Below are positions 35,621 to 42,639 of a stretch of 64,000 nt of DNA, piece after piece (position 1 is the stretch's first letter; each line of letters starts with the position of its first letter). The notes beneath the pieces were generated by a model that saw only the letters and a list, made by a program, of their open reading frames with translations, was not told the origin of the DNA and made no database searches. The position numbers were made by a program, and so were the translations under genes. The stretch lies in contig NZ_CP036276.1 in assembly GCF_007747995.1 (NCBI RefSeq), positions 310,001 through 374,000 on the forward strand. The letters run 5' to 3'. The DNA is from Symmachiella dynata. Lineage in GTDB: Bacteria; Planctomycetota; Planctomycetia; Planctomycetales; Planctomycetaceae.

Positions 35621-38600
35621 TCAATCGTCGTCCGCATCTGCCAACTTTGTATCCCAACCGACGACTTGTTCCGAGAATTCCAGCATGCTGATTGTGATCT
35701 TTGGCAGCGTGACGGGGGTGACCGGGGCGTCGAGGTCGAAGTGGTCTGGCTGTTCCATCTTGGCGACCTCGTTCTCCAAGCTGTACAGCCAGGGCGGAAT
35801 GTCCATTGCCGAACCGGTTGTGCTTTCCAAGTAGTCGTCGACCTTTTCGCTCAGCGTTTCAAAGGACGCCGAGGGCGTTTGCAGCCGCGCTGCTTCGATC
35901 GCTTCGGGCACGAGCGCCAAAATTCGGTCCAACGTGAGCGGCTTAATGAACCGTTCATTCAGCCGGTCTCGCAAACTCGGCAGTTTGATGCTGCACGCGC
36001 GCTCCAGCCGCGCCAGATTTCGCAAAAACGTTTCTGAAAGCGTTTCGGTTTTAATGCGGAACACATCCTGCCAAATCTCCGCCGCCTCAATCGCGCCTTC
36101 ACGGGCCAGTGCTTCGTGCACGATGGCCACCGGCGTCAGATCCCACGCCTTGCGGTCGTAATCGGCTTCCAATCGCAGGAACGCCAACAGCTGATAAATG
36201 TTTTCGCCGTAGTCCGATTGCGTGGTTGTGCTGTTGTATTCGATAAAGCGTTCGTACTTGTCCTGCAAACAGCGAAGGATGATTTCCAAGCAATCAGATG
36301 CGTCTTCCCGATCCAATTCGCCGCTGGAAAGATCCTCTACCAATCGCATCGGATTGAGTGGATCGTCGTCCTCTTCCAGCATGTCCAGGTACGATTCGAC
36401 TCCTTGACGCAAGATCGCGCGGATGCCCCCCAAGGTCAGATTGCCGCCGTAAAATAGATCCTGACCATATCGGCGGATAAACCATTTGACCTCGGACCAA
36501 GCCACACGGTCGTTCAGCGCTTCGACGGTGGAAATCCGCATCGTGCTACTGTGGTCCAGCCACAGTTCCAGATAGTACTCGCCGATTTCACCGACCGATT
36601 GAATCAACTGCTCGTCGGTGAATTTTCCGTTTTCCCAATCTTCGGAACTCCGGATCACGCAGCTCAGCGAATTTCGCAAGGCGGCTGAAAACAACCCGGC
36701 GAATTCCGTGACCGTCACACCGGCGCGATTGCTGCGGCGCTCCATCAATTGCGCTGTCTTGAGCGTATGCCACGTTTCGCGCAACAAACCCAGTCGCGGC
36801 AACTGCTCCAACAGAAATTGAATCGCTGATTGCAGCGTCCGCACGCGGGCGATCGCCAGCGGATCTCCTCCTTCGTGCAGTGGTACATACAACAGCGGTC
36901 GCCGCGAGATCGCTTTGAGGAAAGGCGGCAGCAACGCTTGGGTCTGCGCGACGTCGGAACGGAAAATAGCGCGGTACAACGGAACGGCCGATTGCTCCCA
37001 ACCTTTCAAGACCGCTCCCGACGGTTTGTCCGGCAGGCAACTCAACAACGTCCGCGAGGAATCGCCGCATTTGCTGAAGACAATAATCAACATCCGCAAC
37101 AACTCAATCTTCATCTGCGACTGACGGTCGAATTCGATCAACGATTCTTGATCGCCCATCGGCAAGTCCGATTCCATGTCGGAAACCGATTCAATGAGCA
37201 CTTTCAGGCCCTTGAGCAGCGCCGTGTCATGTTGCCGCCAATGCAGGATCGTCTCGCCCAACGTCTCGGCAAAATCAGCTGCATCGTCGTCGGTCGGTGA
37301 CATGGCGGACGACATATTCGCCGCCGCAATTTGCCGCAGATGCGACAGATTGGCCAAAAACACCAACCGGTCACGCAGTCCCGAACTCAGCGAATCAAAT
37401 TCGCTATCCCGCGAGAAAAGATCGTCGTCGACAGTGTCACCACTGCGGCCGTCGCGGGCGCTTTCTTTGAACGTCACATCCTCATAAGCCGCCTCGAAGA
37501 GATTTGCTTCTTCGTCCTCGTCGTCGTCACCTTCGAGGTCCTCAAGTTCCTCGTCGTCGAGCAGCATATGCTGTTCGCCGGCTATCGCTTCGTTAAACGA
37601 GGGAACAGACCAATATGCGCCGGCGTTGGCTTCGAGGTAATCGAAGAACTTTTGAATCTTTGGCCAGGCACGGCGGCTGGTTGCGGTGGGGTCTTCGTCT
37701 TCGAGCGGCGTGAGCACCATTTCCAACCAGCGTCCCGCCAAAATGTGAAACGAGTAGTTACCCGATTCGAGCGAAACGGTTTCCCCTTCGCTGAGCCACT
37801 GAATCAGCAGTCCCATCGATGCGACAATATCCCCTTTGTCCAACAAGGCCGAGACGACCAGCGCGTACGACTTGGGGGATTGAAAGCGTTCGACTTGCTG
37901 CCGCCAAAAGGCAATGTCGCCCGCCGATTCACCAGCCGTCCGCCATTCGGCCAAGACCTCTGCTACGTGCGACGCGGACTGCCAACTTTCCTGCCCCGAG
38001 ACGGGTGGCAAGTCGGCCACAGCTGTCGTGGCGTAGCGATCCCATTCGTCGGCCAAGTTGTGAAACTCCGTGGAGATCTTATCCAATGTTTCCCGGTCCC
38101 CGGCAGCGGCCGCCTCGCTCATCAACCGGGCGAACAAGCTGAAGACGCGGTCGACCAGATCGATCAACACGTCGACCCGCGGATCAACAATGCTGTCTTC
38201 CCGCGCGGTGAACAACGGAAACAAACCTTGAAAGCCGAGAATATTCCACGGGTCGACCAACGCGCCGCAACCAATTCCCCGGTGAATCAAATCCGGAATT
38301 TCCGCTGCCCGCTGAGCAGCCGCGGTGATGTCGTTATGATCCAAGTCAATATTGGCCGCCGTAATCGCGCACTGAATCTCGCATTCAATCCGCGCTGCCG
38401 AGGAAGGGATCGTATTCGCGTGCCGCATCGATTCTTCGGGATACCCCATCCGCGCATACAGCAGCGAGGTATGCACATGCTGCAGTTGCCGTGCTCCGTA
38501 ATCGGCGAGAAACAAATTCAAATGCTGCCGGACGCGTCCAAACGGTTGCCGGTGCACCCGGGCTTCGGCGATGATTTTCTCAGCCACCAGTCCGGAGAGG

Positions 38601-39613
38601 GACTCCATCAGCCGCGTATAAAACGCATCCCGTTGGCGCGCGACTTTGGGCAACAATGTCGTAAGGCTAATGTCTGAGCTATGCGTGTCGGGGCCGGCGC
38701 CGCTGATCGACGATGCCATCAACATCGTTCCACACAACGCCGCTGCCGCTTGATACAGCGCCTCTTCTTCGGTCATGTCCTCGGCTTGCTCGATCCAATC
38801 GACCAAGGCATCGACAACAATTTGCCGCACGATAAAACGATGGTACAACCCTTTGTTATCGATGCAGTGCGGATCCCATTCGCCGAACGTGTAATTCGTC
38901 CGTTTATAAACCGGATGGCTTTGATCGTACGCCCGCACATCGATGGCGACTTCTTGGAGTTGATCCAAATCGAAATAGGCGTCTCGCAACAAGGCCGGCG
39001 GCGAAGCCCGCAAGATATCGAGTGTGGTCTGGATCAACTTCTGGTATTTGCCAACAGCAACGCCCGCCTGTTGAATATAAATCGGGACTGGGCGAAACCG
39101 CTCATGCGGATACGGCTGCATCCTGCGGCCCGATTCCAGAACCGCAATCGGACGATGCCCGATGAAGTCGTTCAGTTGCTTCAATGCGCCTGCGACAATC
39201 CGATCGGTTTCATCCCAAGGCGGACCTTGCGCCAACGTGGCTTCGAACAGCCGCGCCAGAAAAAAGGGCTGCTGCAAGGCGCCGTCGGGCAAATGGAATA
39301 ATAAATCCCGATGGTATCGGCGATATTCCGGAGCGACTTCGTCGAAGACCAGCTTCAAGACCGCTTCGACCTGCCCCGTGTCGGCAAAGGCCGCCGACTG
39401 TCCCTCTGCCTTGCGCAAATATTCACCGAGCAGAACCCGCAGACGATTCCACGGAAACTCCGTATCGATCCAGCCGTGCAGCCGATTCAGTGCGCTGTGA
39501 AAACCGGGGTCGGGATTTCCAGCGGAAAAATTTAGATATCCCAGCAGAACTTGTAAGTCTGCTGCGACCTCTTGAGGAATCGCGGTCGAGGATCGGGCAG
39601 CTTTTCGAGCCAT
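35621..39613 (-). CDS. Very large conserved-looking protein of unknown function (1330 aa)
   Basis: The frame is uninterrupted for 1330 codons with normal codon use for this genome. The protein has no signal peptide or clear membrane helix and appears almost wholly alpha-helical, with irregular repeat-like segments (QLQHVHTSLLYARMGYPEES, AAQRAAEIPDLIHRG) that recall TPR/SHNi-TPR solenoids. Around residue 680-710 there is a highly acidic linker (DDEELEDLEGDDDEDEEANL) that splits the protein into two halves. I recognise no catalytic motif. The start ATG at 39613 gives MARKAARSSTAIPQEVAADL. It stands alone between convergent and divergent genes. It may be a planctomycete-specific scaffold, but that is inference. 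Confidence 0.8.
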   Translation of the reverse strand: MARKAARSSTAIPQEVAADLQVLLGYLNFSAGNPDPGFHSALNRLHGWIDTEFPWNRLRVLLGEYLRKAEGQSAAFADTGQVEAVLKLVFDEVAPEYRRYHRDLLFHLPDGALQQPFFLARLFEATLAQGPPWDETDRIVAGALKQLNDFIGHRPIAVLESGRRMQPYPHERFRPVPIYIQQAGVAVGKYQKLIQTTLDILRASPPALLRDAYFDLDQLQEVAIDVRAYDQSHPVYKRTNYTFGEWDPHCIDNKGLYHRFIVRQIVVDALVDWIEQAEDMTEEEALYQAAAALCGTMLMASSISGAGPDTHSSDISLTTLLPKVARQRDAFYTRLMESLSGLVAEKIIAEARVHRQPFGRVRQHLNLFLADYGARQLQHVHTSLLYARMGYPEESMRHANTIPSSAARIECEIQCAITAANIDLDHNDITAAAQRAAEIPDLIHRGIGCGALVDPWNILGFQGLFPLFTAREDSIVDPRVDVLIDLVDRVFSLFARLMSEAAAAGDRETLDKISTEFHNLADEWDRYATTAVADLPPVSGQESWQSASHVAEVLAEWRTAGESAGDIAFWRQQVERFQSPKSYALVVSALLDKGDIVASMGLLIQWLSEGETVSLESGNYSFHILAGRWLEMVLTPLEDEDPTATSRRAWPKIQKFFDYLEANAGAYWSVPSFNEAIAGEQHMLLDDEELEDLEGDDDEDEEANLFEAAYEDVTFKESARDGRSGDTVDDDLFSRDSEFDSLSSGLRDRLVFLANLSHLRQIAAANMSSAMSPTDDDAADFAETLGETILHWRQHDTALLKGLKVLIESVSDMESDLPMGDQESLIEFDRQSQMKIELLRMLIIVFSKCGDSSRTLLSCLPDKPSGAVLKGWEQSAVPLYRAIFRSDVAQTQALLPPFLKAISRRPLLYVPLHEGGDPLAIARVRTLQSAIQFLLEQLPRLGLLRETWHTLKTAQLMERRSNRAGVTVTEFAGLFSAALRNSLSCVIRSSEDWENGKFTDEQLIQSVGEIGEYYLELWLDHSSTMRISTVEALNDRVAWSEVKWFIRRYGQDLFYGGNLTLGGIRAILRQGVESYLDMLEEDDDPLNPMRLVEDLSSGELDREDASDCLEIILRCLQDKYERFIEYNSTTTQSDYGENIYQLLAFLRLEADYDRKAWDLTPVAIVHEALAREGAIEAAEIWQDVFRIKTETLSETFLRNLARLERACSIKLPSLRDRLNERFIKPLTLDRILALVPEAIEAARLQTPSASFETLSEKVDDYLESTTGSAMDIPPWLYSLENEVAKMEQPDHFDLDAPVTPVTLPKITISMLEFSEQVVGWDTKLADADDD

Positions 39614-40057
39614 CGGAAGTTTTGAATTCTCATCATACAGTGAAAGCAGTTGGTCTATTGCGCATTATCTCGCTGCGCCTTAGTAGAGCAACCGCGTCGG
39701 CATTTGAAAACCCCGACGCCCGGTCCGTGGGTGTGCATGGAGACGATGCAGTTTTCAGCATGTCACACCGACGTCTTCGGGGCAATGCTACCGCACAAAT
39801 GCCCAAACCGTAGGGTGTTTTTGAAATCATGCCACCTAGTTTGAGACAAAATGACCGAAAACGGTTCGGATCGGCCCGCAGGCGTAAATCGTTCCGGTTT
39901 TCCCTTTTCCGTAGCCTCATGGTTGGGTTTCCCAGCGTGATCCGATTAGAATCAAGATTGCCAGTTATTGCCAAACACGCCGGTGTCGACAGGTTCCGCG
40001 GGTCAATCATCCGTACTCGTCTTCGCCGATTCACTATTTTTTCGAGGGCGAGTCAAC
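39614..40057. other. Intergenic stretch without recognised gene
   Basis: About 440 bp between the divergent 1330-residue gene and the UspA gene. Only shadow frames occur. It must contain promoters for both, but no clear hexamer pair was found. Confidence 0.4.
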
Positions 40058-40522
40058 ATGATTAACCTCAAACGTATTCTCGTGGCGACTGACTTTAGCG
40101 AACACTCCAACGTCGCCGTCAAGTACGCCACCGCATTAGCACAGGCCTTTGACAGCGAAGTGATTCTGTGCCACGTCGTCGAGGCGCCCGATTTGATTTC
40201 GCAAATCCCGCCAACCGGCGAAGGCTATTTTCCGCCGAACTTCCAAGAACAACAGCGGAAAGCGGCGGAGGAAGAATGCGCCAAAATCATCACCGACTCC
40301 GGCATCAAAAACGGCCGGTCGTTGATTGTGGAAGGGAGCGCCTTCTTCGAGGTGATCCGAGCTGCCAAAGCCGAAGACGTGGATCTGATCATCGTTGGGA
40401 CACACGGTCGCGGCGCGATCGCACATGTGCTGCTCGGTTCGGTGGCGGAAAAAATCGTCCGCAAAGCCCCGTGTCCGGTCTTGACCGTCCGCGAGGGAGA
40501 ACACGAGTTCGTCCTGCCCTAA
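40058..40522 (+). CDS. Universal stress protein, UspA family
   Basis: This 154-residue single-domain Usp protein starts MINLKRILVATDFSEHSNVA and has the ATP-binding motif of the family, G-x2-G-x9-G-(S/T), in GTHGRGAIAHVLLGSVAEKI. It ends with RKAPCPVLTVRE. These features indicate the ATP-binding UspFG/MJ0577 type. ATG at 40058, preceded by GAGGGCGAG, gives the normal N-terminus; the track-length extension to 39968 is not supported. It lies 128 bp upstream of the Nramp-like gene on the same strand with two hairpins between, so cotranscription is uncertain. Confidence 0.9.
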   Translation: MINLKRILVATDFSEHSNVAVKYATALAQAFDSEVILCHVVEAPDLISQIPPTGEGYFPPNFQEQQRKAAEEECAKIITDSGIKNGRSLIVEGSAFFEVIRAAKAEDVDLIIVGTHGRGAIAHVLLGSVAEKIVRKAPCPVLTVREGEHEFVLP

Positions 40523-40531
40523 TGCTGCATG

Positions 40532-40602
40532 AGCCCTCGGAGGACCCGAGGGCTGGAGACAAGTTCGCCGCTTGAACTCCTGAACCCCCGGTTTTGCTGG
40601 GG
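40532..40602. repeat. Two adjacent hairpins (AGCCCTCGG/CCGAGGGCT and CCCCCGG/TGGGGG)
   Basis: AGCCCTCGG (40532-40540) pairs perfectly with CCGAGGGCT (40546-40554). A second hairpin is formed by CCCCCGG and TGGGGG around 40585-40602. Neither has a T-run. Such paired hairpins between genes are common in planctomycetes. Confidence 0.65.
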
Positions 40603-40650: not shown

Positions 40651-42639
40651 ATGTCTGAGACGCCGCAATTCTCCACCGATGACGTGACCGAACTCGATGC
40701 CGGCAAAAGAAAAGTCCCCAAAGACCAAATGCCGGGCGTTGCCAATATGCCCGCCTGGAATGTGGGGGAATTGATCGACGCCCCCAAATTCGGTTGGAGG
40801 CAGTGGACGTTGTTGCTCGGGCCGGGTTTGCTGATGGGGGGCTCGGCGATCGGTGGCGGCGAGTGGCTGATGGGGCCATTGGTGACTGCGAAATACGGCG
40901 GCAGCCTGCTATGGTTAGCGACGCTCAGTATCCTGGGCCAAGTGATCTACAACTTGGAGATCAGCCGTTACACGCTGTATACCGGCGAGCCGATTTTCAC
41001 CGGCAAATTCCGCATGGTGCCCGGCCCCACGTTTTGGGTCTTCATCTATCTGCTGCTCGATTTTGGCTCGGTGTTTCCCTATCTGGCAGCCAACGCAGCG
41101 ACACCGCTGGCGGCCGTCATTCTGGGGCATATTCCCGATCCCGAAAACGTCGTCTATGAACGGCATCTTCTCAAGTACTTAGGTTATGGGATTTTTCTGG
41201 CAGCCATGATTCCTTTGGTCTTTGGCGGAAAAATCTACAACTCTCTCAAGGCGCTGATGACGTTCAAGATCGTGACCGTGATGGGCTTTTTGATCGTCTT
41301 GGGCATGTTCTATTCTCACACCGCCACCTGGGTCGACATCTTCGGCGGCTTTGTCAAATTCGGCAACCTCCCCATCCGTCGCGGAGAAGATCTCAACCAC
41401 AATGGAAAACTCGACCCCGGCGAAGACTGGGACCACGACGGGCGACTCGACGTCAAGGAACCGATGCTCAAACCGTTGTTGGATTCTGATGGTGATGGAA
41501 AACCAGATGCAACGGACATCTATGAAACCGGCAAGCCCGACAACATGGTCACCATCCAACAAGGGGACGAAACGGTCTATTGGCCCGACTTGGACAAGGA
41601 CGGAAAACCGGATAAGACGGTGATGCTCGACACCAACAACGACGACGTGCCGGATACCGAATTTCCGCTCGATGCGGATCAAGACGGAAAATTGGACACA
41701 TTTGTTGACATCGACGGGCCGAACAAAGATGGCCACGTGACTCGCGATGGCGACAATGTCGCCAACATTTTCACCACGCTGTATCGCGGCGAACCGATGC
41801 CCGATATCGACTGGTCGATGATCGCGTTTCTGTCGGCGCTGGTGGCGATTTCCGGTTCGGGTGGACTGTCGAACACTCCGGTCAGCAATTACACCCGCGA
41901 CCAAGGTTGGGGCATGGGGCACCTTGTCGGCGCTATTCCCAGCGTGGTCGGCGGCCAGGACCTGGAACTCTCGCACGAGGGAACCGTCTTTGTCGTCAAC
42001 GACGAAAGCCTGCCTCGCTGGAAGCGTTGGTACAAACACATTCTCCGCGACCAACTCGTCGTCTGGATGCCGGCATGCTTCTTTGGGTTGGCACTGCCCA
42101 GTATGCTCTCGGTACAATTTCTACCGCGGGGCGCCGTCATCGACGACCAATGGACGGCCGCCGGGATGACCGCCGGAGCTGTGCAGGACGCGGTCGGCGG
42201 CACGCTGGGGCAATTGGCTTGGTTTATGACGCTGTTCTGCGGATTTCTGGTATTGGCGCCCAGCATGGCCACCTCAGCGGATGGTGTGATTCGCCGCTGG
42301 GTCGATGTCTTCTGGACCTCCAGTCCGCGACTTCACAAAGTCGAACCCAAGCATATCCGTTACGTCTATTTTGCTGTGCTTACGGTGTATGCGACCTTCG
42401 GAATGATCATGTTGACCCTCGGCAAACCAGTCACGCTGTTGTTGATCGCGACGACGATCTTCAACTTCGCTTTAGGTTTCAGTTGTTGGCACACCTTGTG
42501 GTTGAACCTGGTGCTGTTACCCCAACAAATCCGTCCCGGTTGGTTCGCCCGCATCACGTTGTTCTTGTCGGGCTGTTTCTTCTGGACGGTCGCCACCATC
42601 TCCGCCACGATCACCCTACAAAAGTTTGGCTTGTTGTAG
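40651..42639 (+). CDS. Nramp-related transporter with inserted calcium-loop repeats
   Basis: This 662-residue polytopic membrane protein is related to the Nramp family. The first helix reads LLLGPGLLMGGSAIGGGEWL, in which the canonical DPGN metal motif is replaced by GGGEW. About ten helices are visible. Between about residues 245 and 380 an aspartate-rich insert carries at least six EF-hand-like loops of the thrombospondin type 3/dockerin kind: DLNHNGKLDPGEDWDHDGRL, DSDGDGKPDATD, DLDKDGKPD, DTNNDDVPD and DADQDGKLD. Normal Nramp proteins are about 400-450 residues without this insert. ATG at 40651 is favoured over a TTG at 40594. The transported ion is unknown; the insert probably binds calcium outside the membrane. 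Confidence 0.8.
   Translation: MSETPQFSTDDVTELDAGKRKVPKDQMPGVANMPAWNVGELIDAPKFGWRQWTLLLGPGLLMGGSAIGGGEWLMGPLVTAKYGGSLLWLATLSILGQVIYNLEISRYTLYTGEPIFTGKFRMVPGPTFWVFIYLLLDFGSVFPYLAANAATPLAAVILGHIPDPENVVYERHLLKYLGYGIFLAAMIPLVFGGKIYNSLKALMTFKIVTVMGFLIVLGMFYSHTATWVDIFGGFVKFGNLPIRRGEDLNHNGKLDPGEDWDHDGRLDVKEPMLKPLLDSDGDGKPDATDIYETGKPDNMVTIQQGDETVYWPDLDKDGKPDKTVMLDTNNDDVPDTEFPLDADQDGKLDTFVDIDGPNKDGHVTRDGDNVANIFTTLYRGEPMPDIDWSMIAFLSALVAISGSGGLSNTPVSNYTRDQGWGMGHLVGAIPSVVGGQDLELSHEGTVFVVNDESLPRWKRWYKHILRDQLVVWMPACFFGLALPSMLSVQFLPRGAVIDDQWTAAGMTAGAVQDAVGGTLGQLAWFMTLFCGFLVLAPSMATSADGVIRRWVDVFWTSSPRLHKVEPKHIRYVYFAVLTVYATFGMIMLTLGKPVTLLLIATTIFNFALGFSCWHTLWLNLVLLPQQIRPGWFARITLFLSGCFFWTVATISATITLQKFGLL

Follow-up and report, generated by a model that had tools for sequence, protein, structure and literature searches.

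A transporter of the Nramp-related group, encoded in a 64,000-nucleotide stretch of DNA (the window) on a 7.77 Mb planctomycete chromosome, bears six or seven calcium-type loops in one insert of about 128 residues, at the tip of the hairpin that joins transmembrane helices TM5 and TM6. The loops are constrained, the insert is predicted to be folded and to lie outside the cytoplasm, and close relatives lack it altogether. We consider it fairly probable that calcium folds the insert into an outer cap with a structural and not a sensory role, carried as an optional module by an Nramp-related carrier. The features are collected in Table 1; for the transporter gene itself, an alternative in-frame TTG start at 40594, upstream of the ATG, is possible.

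Table 1. Features of the transporter locus, in window positions.
Feature	Position	Strand	Basis
Universal stress protein gene, upstream of transporter	39968..40522	+	Pfam Usp, 120.6 bits; 12 loci
Nramp-related transporter gene	40651..42639	+	662 aa, ATG to stop, frame open; NCBIfam NF037982 match
TM1 motif GGGEW (residues 68-72), where canonical Nramps have DPGN(W)	40852..40866	+	alignment of relatives
TM5 (residues 195-221), preceding the extracytoplasmic hairpin	41233..41313	+	AlphaFold2 model; DraNramp alignment, Z 30.9
Hairpin strand 1, short (residues 239-243)	41365..41379	+	model; FGNVPV sequence also in insert-free relatives
Putative calcium-loop insert (residues 244-371), ~128 residues, net charge about -23	41380..41763	+	sequence, alignment, model
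Loop 1 DLNHNGKLDPGE, complete 12-residue EF-type loop	41389..41424	+	positions 1, 3, 5, 9, 12 D/N/E in 29/29 insert-bearing sequences
Loop 2 DWDHDGRLDVKE, complete 12-residue EF-type loop, abuts loop 1	41425..41460	+	positions 1, 3, 5, 9, 12 D/N/E in 29/29
Loop 3 DSDGDGKPDATD	41482..41517	+	varies among relatives
Loop 4 DLDKDGKPDKTV	41587..41622	+	D/N/E at positions 1, 3, 5, 9 in ~95% where present
Loop 5 DTNNDDVPDTEF, variant	41629..41664	+	pattern match
Loop 6 DADQDGKLDTFV	41671..41706	+	pattern match
Loop 7 DIDGPNKDGHVTRDG, interrupted DIDGDGxRDG	41707..41751	+	D353, D355, D366, G367 invariant in 29 rows
Hairpin strand 2, short (residues 368-372)	41752..41766	+	model; DNVF-type sequence also in insert-free relatives
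TM6 region (residues 388-417), with GSGGLSNTPVSNYTRD where canonical Nramps have MPH	41812..41901	+	alignment, AlphaFold2 model

The protein matched the NCBIfam model NF037982, "Nramp family divalent metal transporter", with 133 bits, where the cut-off is 50. A single-sequence Pfam scan, which is a test of detection and not of a structural feature, gave no family up to E 10, PF01566 included. AlphaFold2, supplied with an alignment of 56 sequences, modelled the whole protein with a mean pLDDT of 86 and a pTM of 0.87; such models place no ions. In structural alignment, residues 45-662 matched DraNramp (6d91) with a Z score of 30.9 over 389 residues at 2.9 A, the LeuT/Nramp fold spanning the entire core, and human NRAMP1, DMT1, BfraNramp and EleNRMT gave Z scores of 27-29. 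Profile and structure thus uphold the Nramp-type transporter of a preliminary description of this DNA, but not its word "channel": it is a carrier with the LeuT fold and belongs to the Nramp-related group, outside the canonical Nramps. Because the core aligns over its whole length with Nramp structures, in which this hairpin is outer, the insert should lie on the extracytoplasmic side, and the count of lysine and arginine residues (21 in inner loops versus 3 in outer loops, insert excluded) points the same way. Topology and structure prediction, proposed earlier as a check, therefore puts the insert outside the cytoplasm; a cytoplasmic position is supported by neither the alignment nor the charge distribution.

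Loops were sought with the pattern D-x-[DN]-x-[DN], with DxDxDGxxD as the strict form. Six matches begin at residues 247, 259, 278, 313, 327 and 341; five of them also have G6 and D9, and that at residue 327, DTNNDD, is a variant. A seventh loop, at residue 353, is split by three extra residues where most relatives have DIDGDGxRDG, the split form being confined to this genus among the sequences compared. All of them, five strict and two variant, fall inside the single insert between TM5 and TM6, in agreement with the description of at least six DxDxDG-type loops in about 135 residues between membrane helices. In composition-preserving shuffles the mean number of strict loops was 0.005 for the whole protein and 0.05 for the insert, versus the 5 observed, and none of 20,000 reached 5, which rules out loops by chance. 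Loops 1 and 2 satisfy the full 12-residue EF loop DxDxDGxxDxxE, with Glu at position 12. No recent tandem duplication at the DNA level was detected in the window.

Conservation within the insert is concentrated on the loop ligands: 16 positions reach 90% conservation or more, and 14 of them are ligand sites of the loops (Fisher P 1.2e-7). The ligand positions of loops 1 and 2 were kept in all 29 insert-bearing sequences, with positions 2, 4 and 7 varying, which bears out the reading of these as real, conserved calcium-type loops; the single-loop relatives retained D1, N3, N/D5, G6, D9 and E/D12 in 18 of 18. In most pairs with usable dS, dN/dS was about 0.02-0.15 in the insert compared with 0.03-0.10 in the core; dS was saturated in several distant pairs, and one outlier pair (L081/L093) had raised values in insert and core alike (0.25 and 0.36). 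Since the ligands are invariant and dN/dS is comparably low in insert and core, the loops are not filler and, judged from the sequences compared, are kept by purifying selection as calcium-type ligands. Loops 3-6 vary among relatives, and therefore Ca2+ binding by every loop would not be required.

Within the whole-protein model the insert had pLDDT values mostly of 77-93, and modelled alone it reached a mean pLDDT of 83.6 and a pTM of 0.71, as short strands and loops. The insert is accordingly predicted to be a folded domain. Neither model contains a helix between residues 239 and 372: the helices that flank each loop of an EF-hand are missing, and the arrangement is that of the tandem helix-free DxDxDG loops of thrombospondin type 3. 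A Foldseek search with the isolated insert matched no solved structure, irregular calcium folds being hard to match; Pfam gave no significant match to the insert, the thrombospondin type 3 profile included; and a sequence search of the PDB gave a single, non-significant match to SCaMC-1 (E 0.11). Disordered filler with variable, non-conserved loops, which the preliminary description had set against its own reading, was ruled out by model confidence, dN/dS and ligand conservation, although the number of middle loops does vary.

Homologues with and without the insert, which the same description had proposed to look for, were both found, and form a graded series at one hairpin tip. The 72 rows of the tree comprise 20 with no loop, 18 with one loop, 12 with an intermediate insert (two to four loops, three or four in most) and 22 with a long insert. 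Three 12-residue loops abut one another in L114 and L115; those of L114 have diverged at the DNA level, and the expansion there is therefore not recent. A tree of the core only requires 11 or more changes of length class, and placing the long inserts (21 rows, L094 left out) in one clade of that tree was rejected by the AU test (p-AU 1.4e-6). L078 with a long array and L095 with no insert belong to the same genus and are sisters with full SH-aLRT support, the DNA that flanks the insert being 76-78% identical on both sides; many relatives with 55-70% identical cores are without the array. As insert-free relatives exist, the core does not need the insert. Among 294 sampled genomes of the phylum, every relative detected outside the window's family was insert-free.

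L094, a divergent paralogue with 39% identity in the core, has the insert-free L034 as its closest relative. The L094 insert nevertheless aligns over the full length with the inserts of the window's group at a mean identity of 46%, versus the 39% of the core; only for L094 is the insert more alike than the core, and all pairs without L094 show the reverse. This suggests that the module moved between paralogues, with the caution that the invariant Asp residues may set a floor to the identity. By these comparisons, gain, enlargement or loss of such a cap seems to have happened repeatedly, in an order that we infer.

Two further observations concern single relatives. The insert at L045:5655-6026 is of near-full length with most middle loops gone, loops 1, 2 and the last being recognisable, and is possibly a decaying array. 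L076 and L087 (genomes G018 and G128) are near-identical over the N-terminal ~445 residues, which take in the insert (dS 0.012 within it), and strongly different in the C-terminal part, a pattern of either recombination across genera or a chimera of metagenome assembly.

DxDxDG motifs were reported to have a strong bias to the periplasm, the surface or secretion, and the folding of Tk-subtilisin needs a Ca2+-stabilised insertion that contains such a motif (PMC3123361). We propose that the hairpin tip bears, on the extracytoplasmic side, tandem EF-type calcium loops without helices, which in a calcium-rich exterior would bind Ca2+ and fold into a rigid cap. The cap would shield or stabilise the outer face of the carrier, its bound ions being structural and probably permanent; it was probably enlarged from a few loops by duplication and lost or handed on between paralogues, and would leave a carrier core that functions without it. 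Precedent and the apparent dispensability of the insert lead us to prefer a structural role, and the existence of insert-free sisters speaks against gating as an essential one.

For the earlier suggestion that the loops sense calcium or gate transport, nothing positive was found; many relatives have similar cores and no array. In such a scheme, Ca2+ on the array would stiffen TM5-loop-TM6a and tune alternate access, giving a response to external calcium. In a marine habitat, with external Ca2+ at millimolar levels, such loops would be saturated, and the insert-free L095 beside L078 indicates a core cycle independent of the insert. We regard this scheme as unlikely, even though loops 1 and 2 are full EF loops with Glu12 and the insert is part of the h5-loop5/6-h6a segment, for which in silico work on Nramps shows movement together with the outer gate (PMC10606218). 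An elaborated form, in which external Ca2+, once bound to the array, has an allosteric effect on the outer gate, loop number tunes the response and the array is a cassette passed between paralogues, appears decidedly unlikely. The strong negative charge of the insert, on an extracytoplasmic loop before TM6a, could instead concentrate divalent cations at the outer mouth and hand them to the carrier, but conservation sits on ordered ligand positions and not on charge in general, and we think such a collector very unlikely. Variable loop number and frequent changes of length class would also suit a weakly constrained decoration, in the form of a repeat-prone surface loop that either lacks a function or serves to dock partners at the cell surface; near-core dN/dS, invariant ligands and a predicted fold speak against it and leave it little probability.

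Among known systems, helix-free DxDxDG calcium arrays, of which the thrombospondin type 3 repeats are one kind, are extracellular and, like the insert, built of tandem DxDxDGxxD loops (thrombospondin calcium motif: PMC3123361), whereas the window's insert has no cysteines, begins with two complete 12-residue EF loops with Glu12 and gave no significant Pfam match and no fold match. The four-calcium insertion of Tk-subtilisin similarly places DxDxDG in an irregular, Ca2+-stabilised insertion into an ordinary fold (PMC3123361), but there 25 residues are inserted into a soluble protease and here ~128 into a membrane carrier. SCaMC-1 and citrin, calcium-regulated mitochondrial carriers, also combine a carrier and EF-type loops in one chain; their helix-loop-helix EF-hands, however, form an N-terminal domain, and the carrier family is unrelated. 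DraNramp/MntH (6d91, 8e60) aligns structurally over the whole length (Z 29-31) at only ~10% identity, and its TM5-TM6 loop is without an inserted domain (chain 398). In the literature on Nramp with planctomycetes, EF-hands or calcium-binding domains, and GGGEW, the architecture was unreported, subscription papers being mostly outside the coverage. With none, one, three, four or about seven loops at a single tip, and with insert-free sisters, these natural variants are a ready test set, which could show how calcium-binding domains grow within a membrane protein and whether calcium stabilises or regulates a transporter.

The motifs of canonical Nramps, the Mn/Fe importers, and with them the DPGN/MPH metal site of DraNramp, are absent: GGGEW replaces DPGN in TM1 and SNTPVSNYTRD replaces MPH in TM6. 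Nramp-related proteins (NF037982, with EleNRMT as a studied case) are a paraphyletic group outside the canonical Nramps, with the same LeuT/Nramp fold, low identity to canonical members and generally no DPGN or MPH (PMC12873925, PMC8806188). Within it the NRMTs, which are Mg2+ transporters, have DxxG in TM1 and TxxA/T in TM6 (PMC8806188); in contrast, the protein studied here has GGGEW in TM1, with Gly at the Asp position, as well as the calcium-loop insert, and is not detected by PF01566. G69-W72 was unchanged across 56 relatives, and IGGGEW was present in 72 of 77 rows, near-invariant irrespective of the insert. The replacement of DPGN, which the preliminary description had singled out, is therefore real but not peculiar; it is family-wide and ordinary among Nramp-related proteins, and thus unconnected with the insert. 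The genome (G000) holds about eight Nramp-superfamily members; DPGN in TM1 was absent from all that were read, most of which have a G-x-G-[E/D/S]-like motif, and on these sequences the organism may depend wholly on Nramp-related carriers.

The relatives that bear names are Planctomycetaceae/Planctomycetales MAGs. A search of the own genome for a donor of the insert gave one weak match only, L136 (G000:C1, about 3539026), a long protein with a TSP3-like stretch, DTDNDGTEDLNDPLPFDRDNDGLPDRIDADDTGNGLPD. The universal stress protein neighbour is kept at transporter loci both with and without the insert; the neighbourhood is therefore uninformative on the insert, and a functional link through neighbours was dropped. 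A 1330-residue ORF at 35621-39613 on the minus strand, which gave zero matches in a Pfam search, neighbours the transporter in 15 loci, and with the Usp gene it makes up a partly conserved neighbourhood around the transporter.
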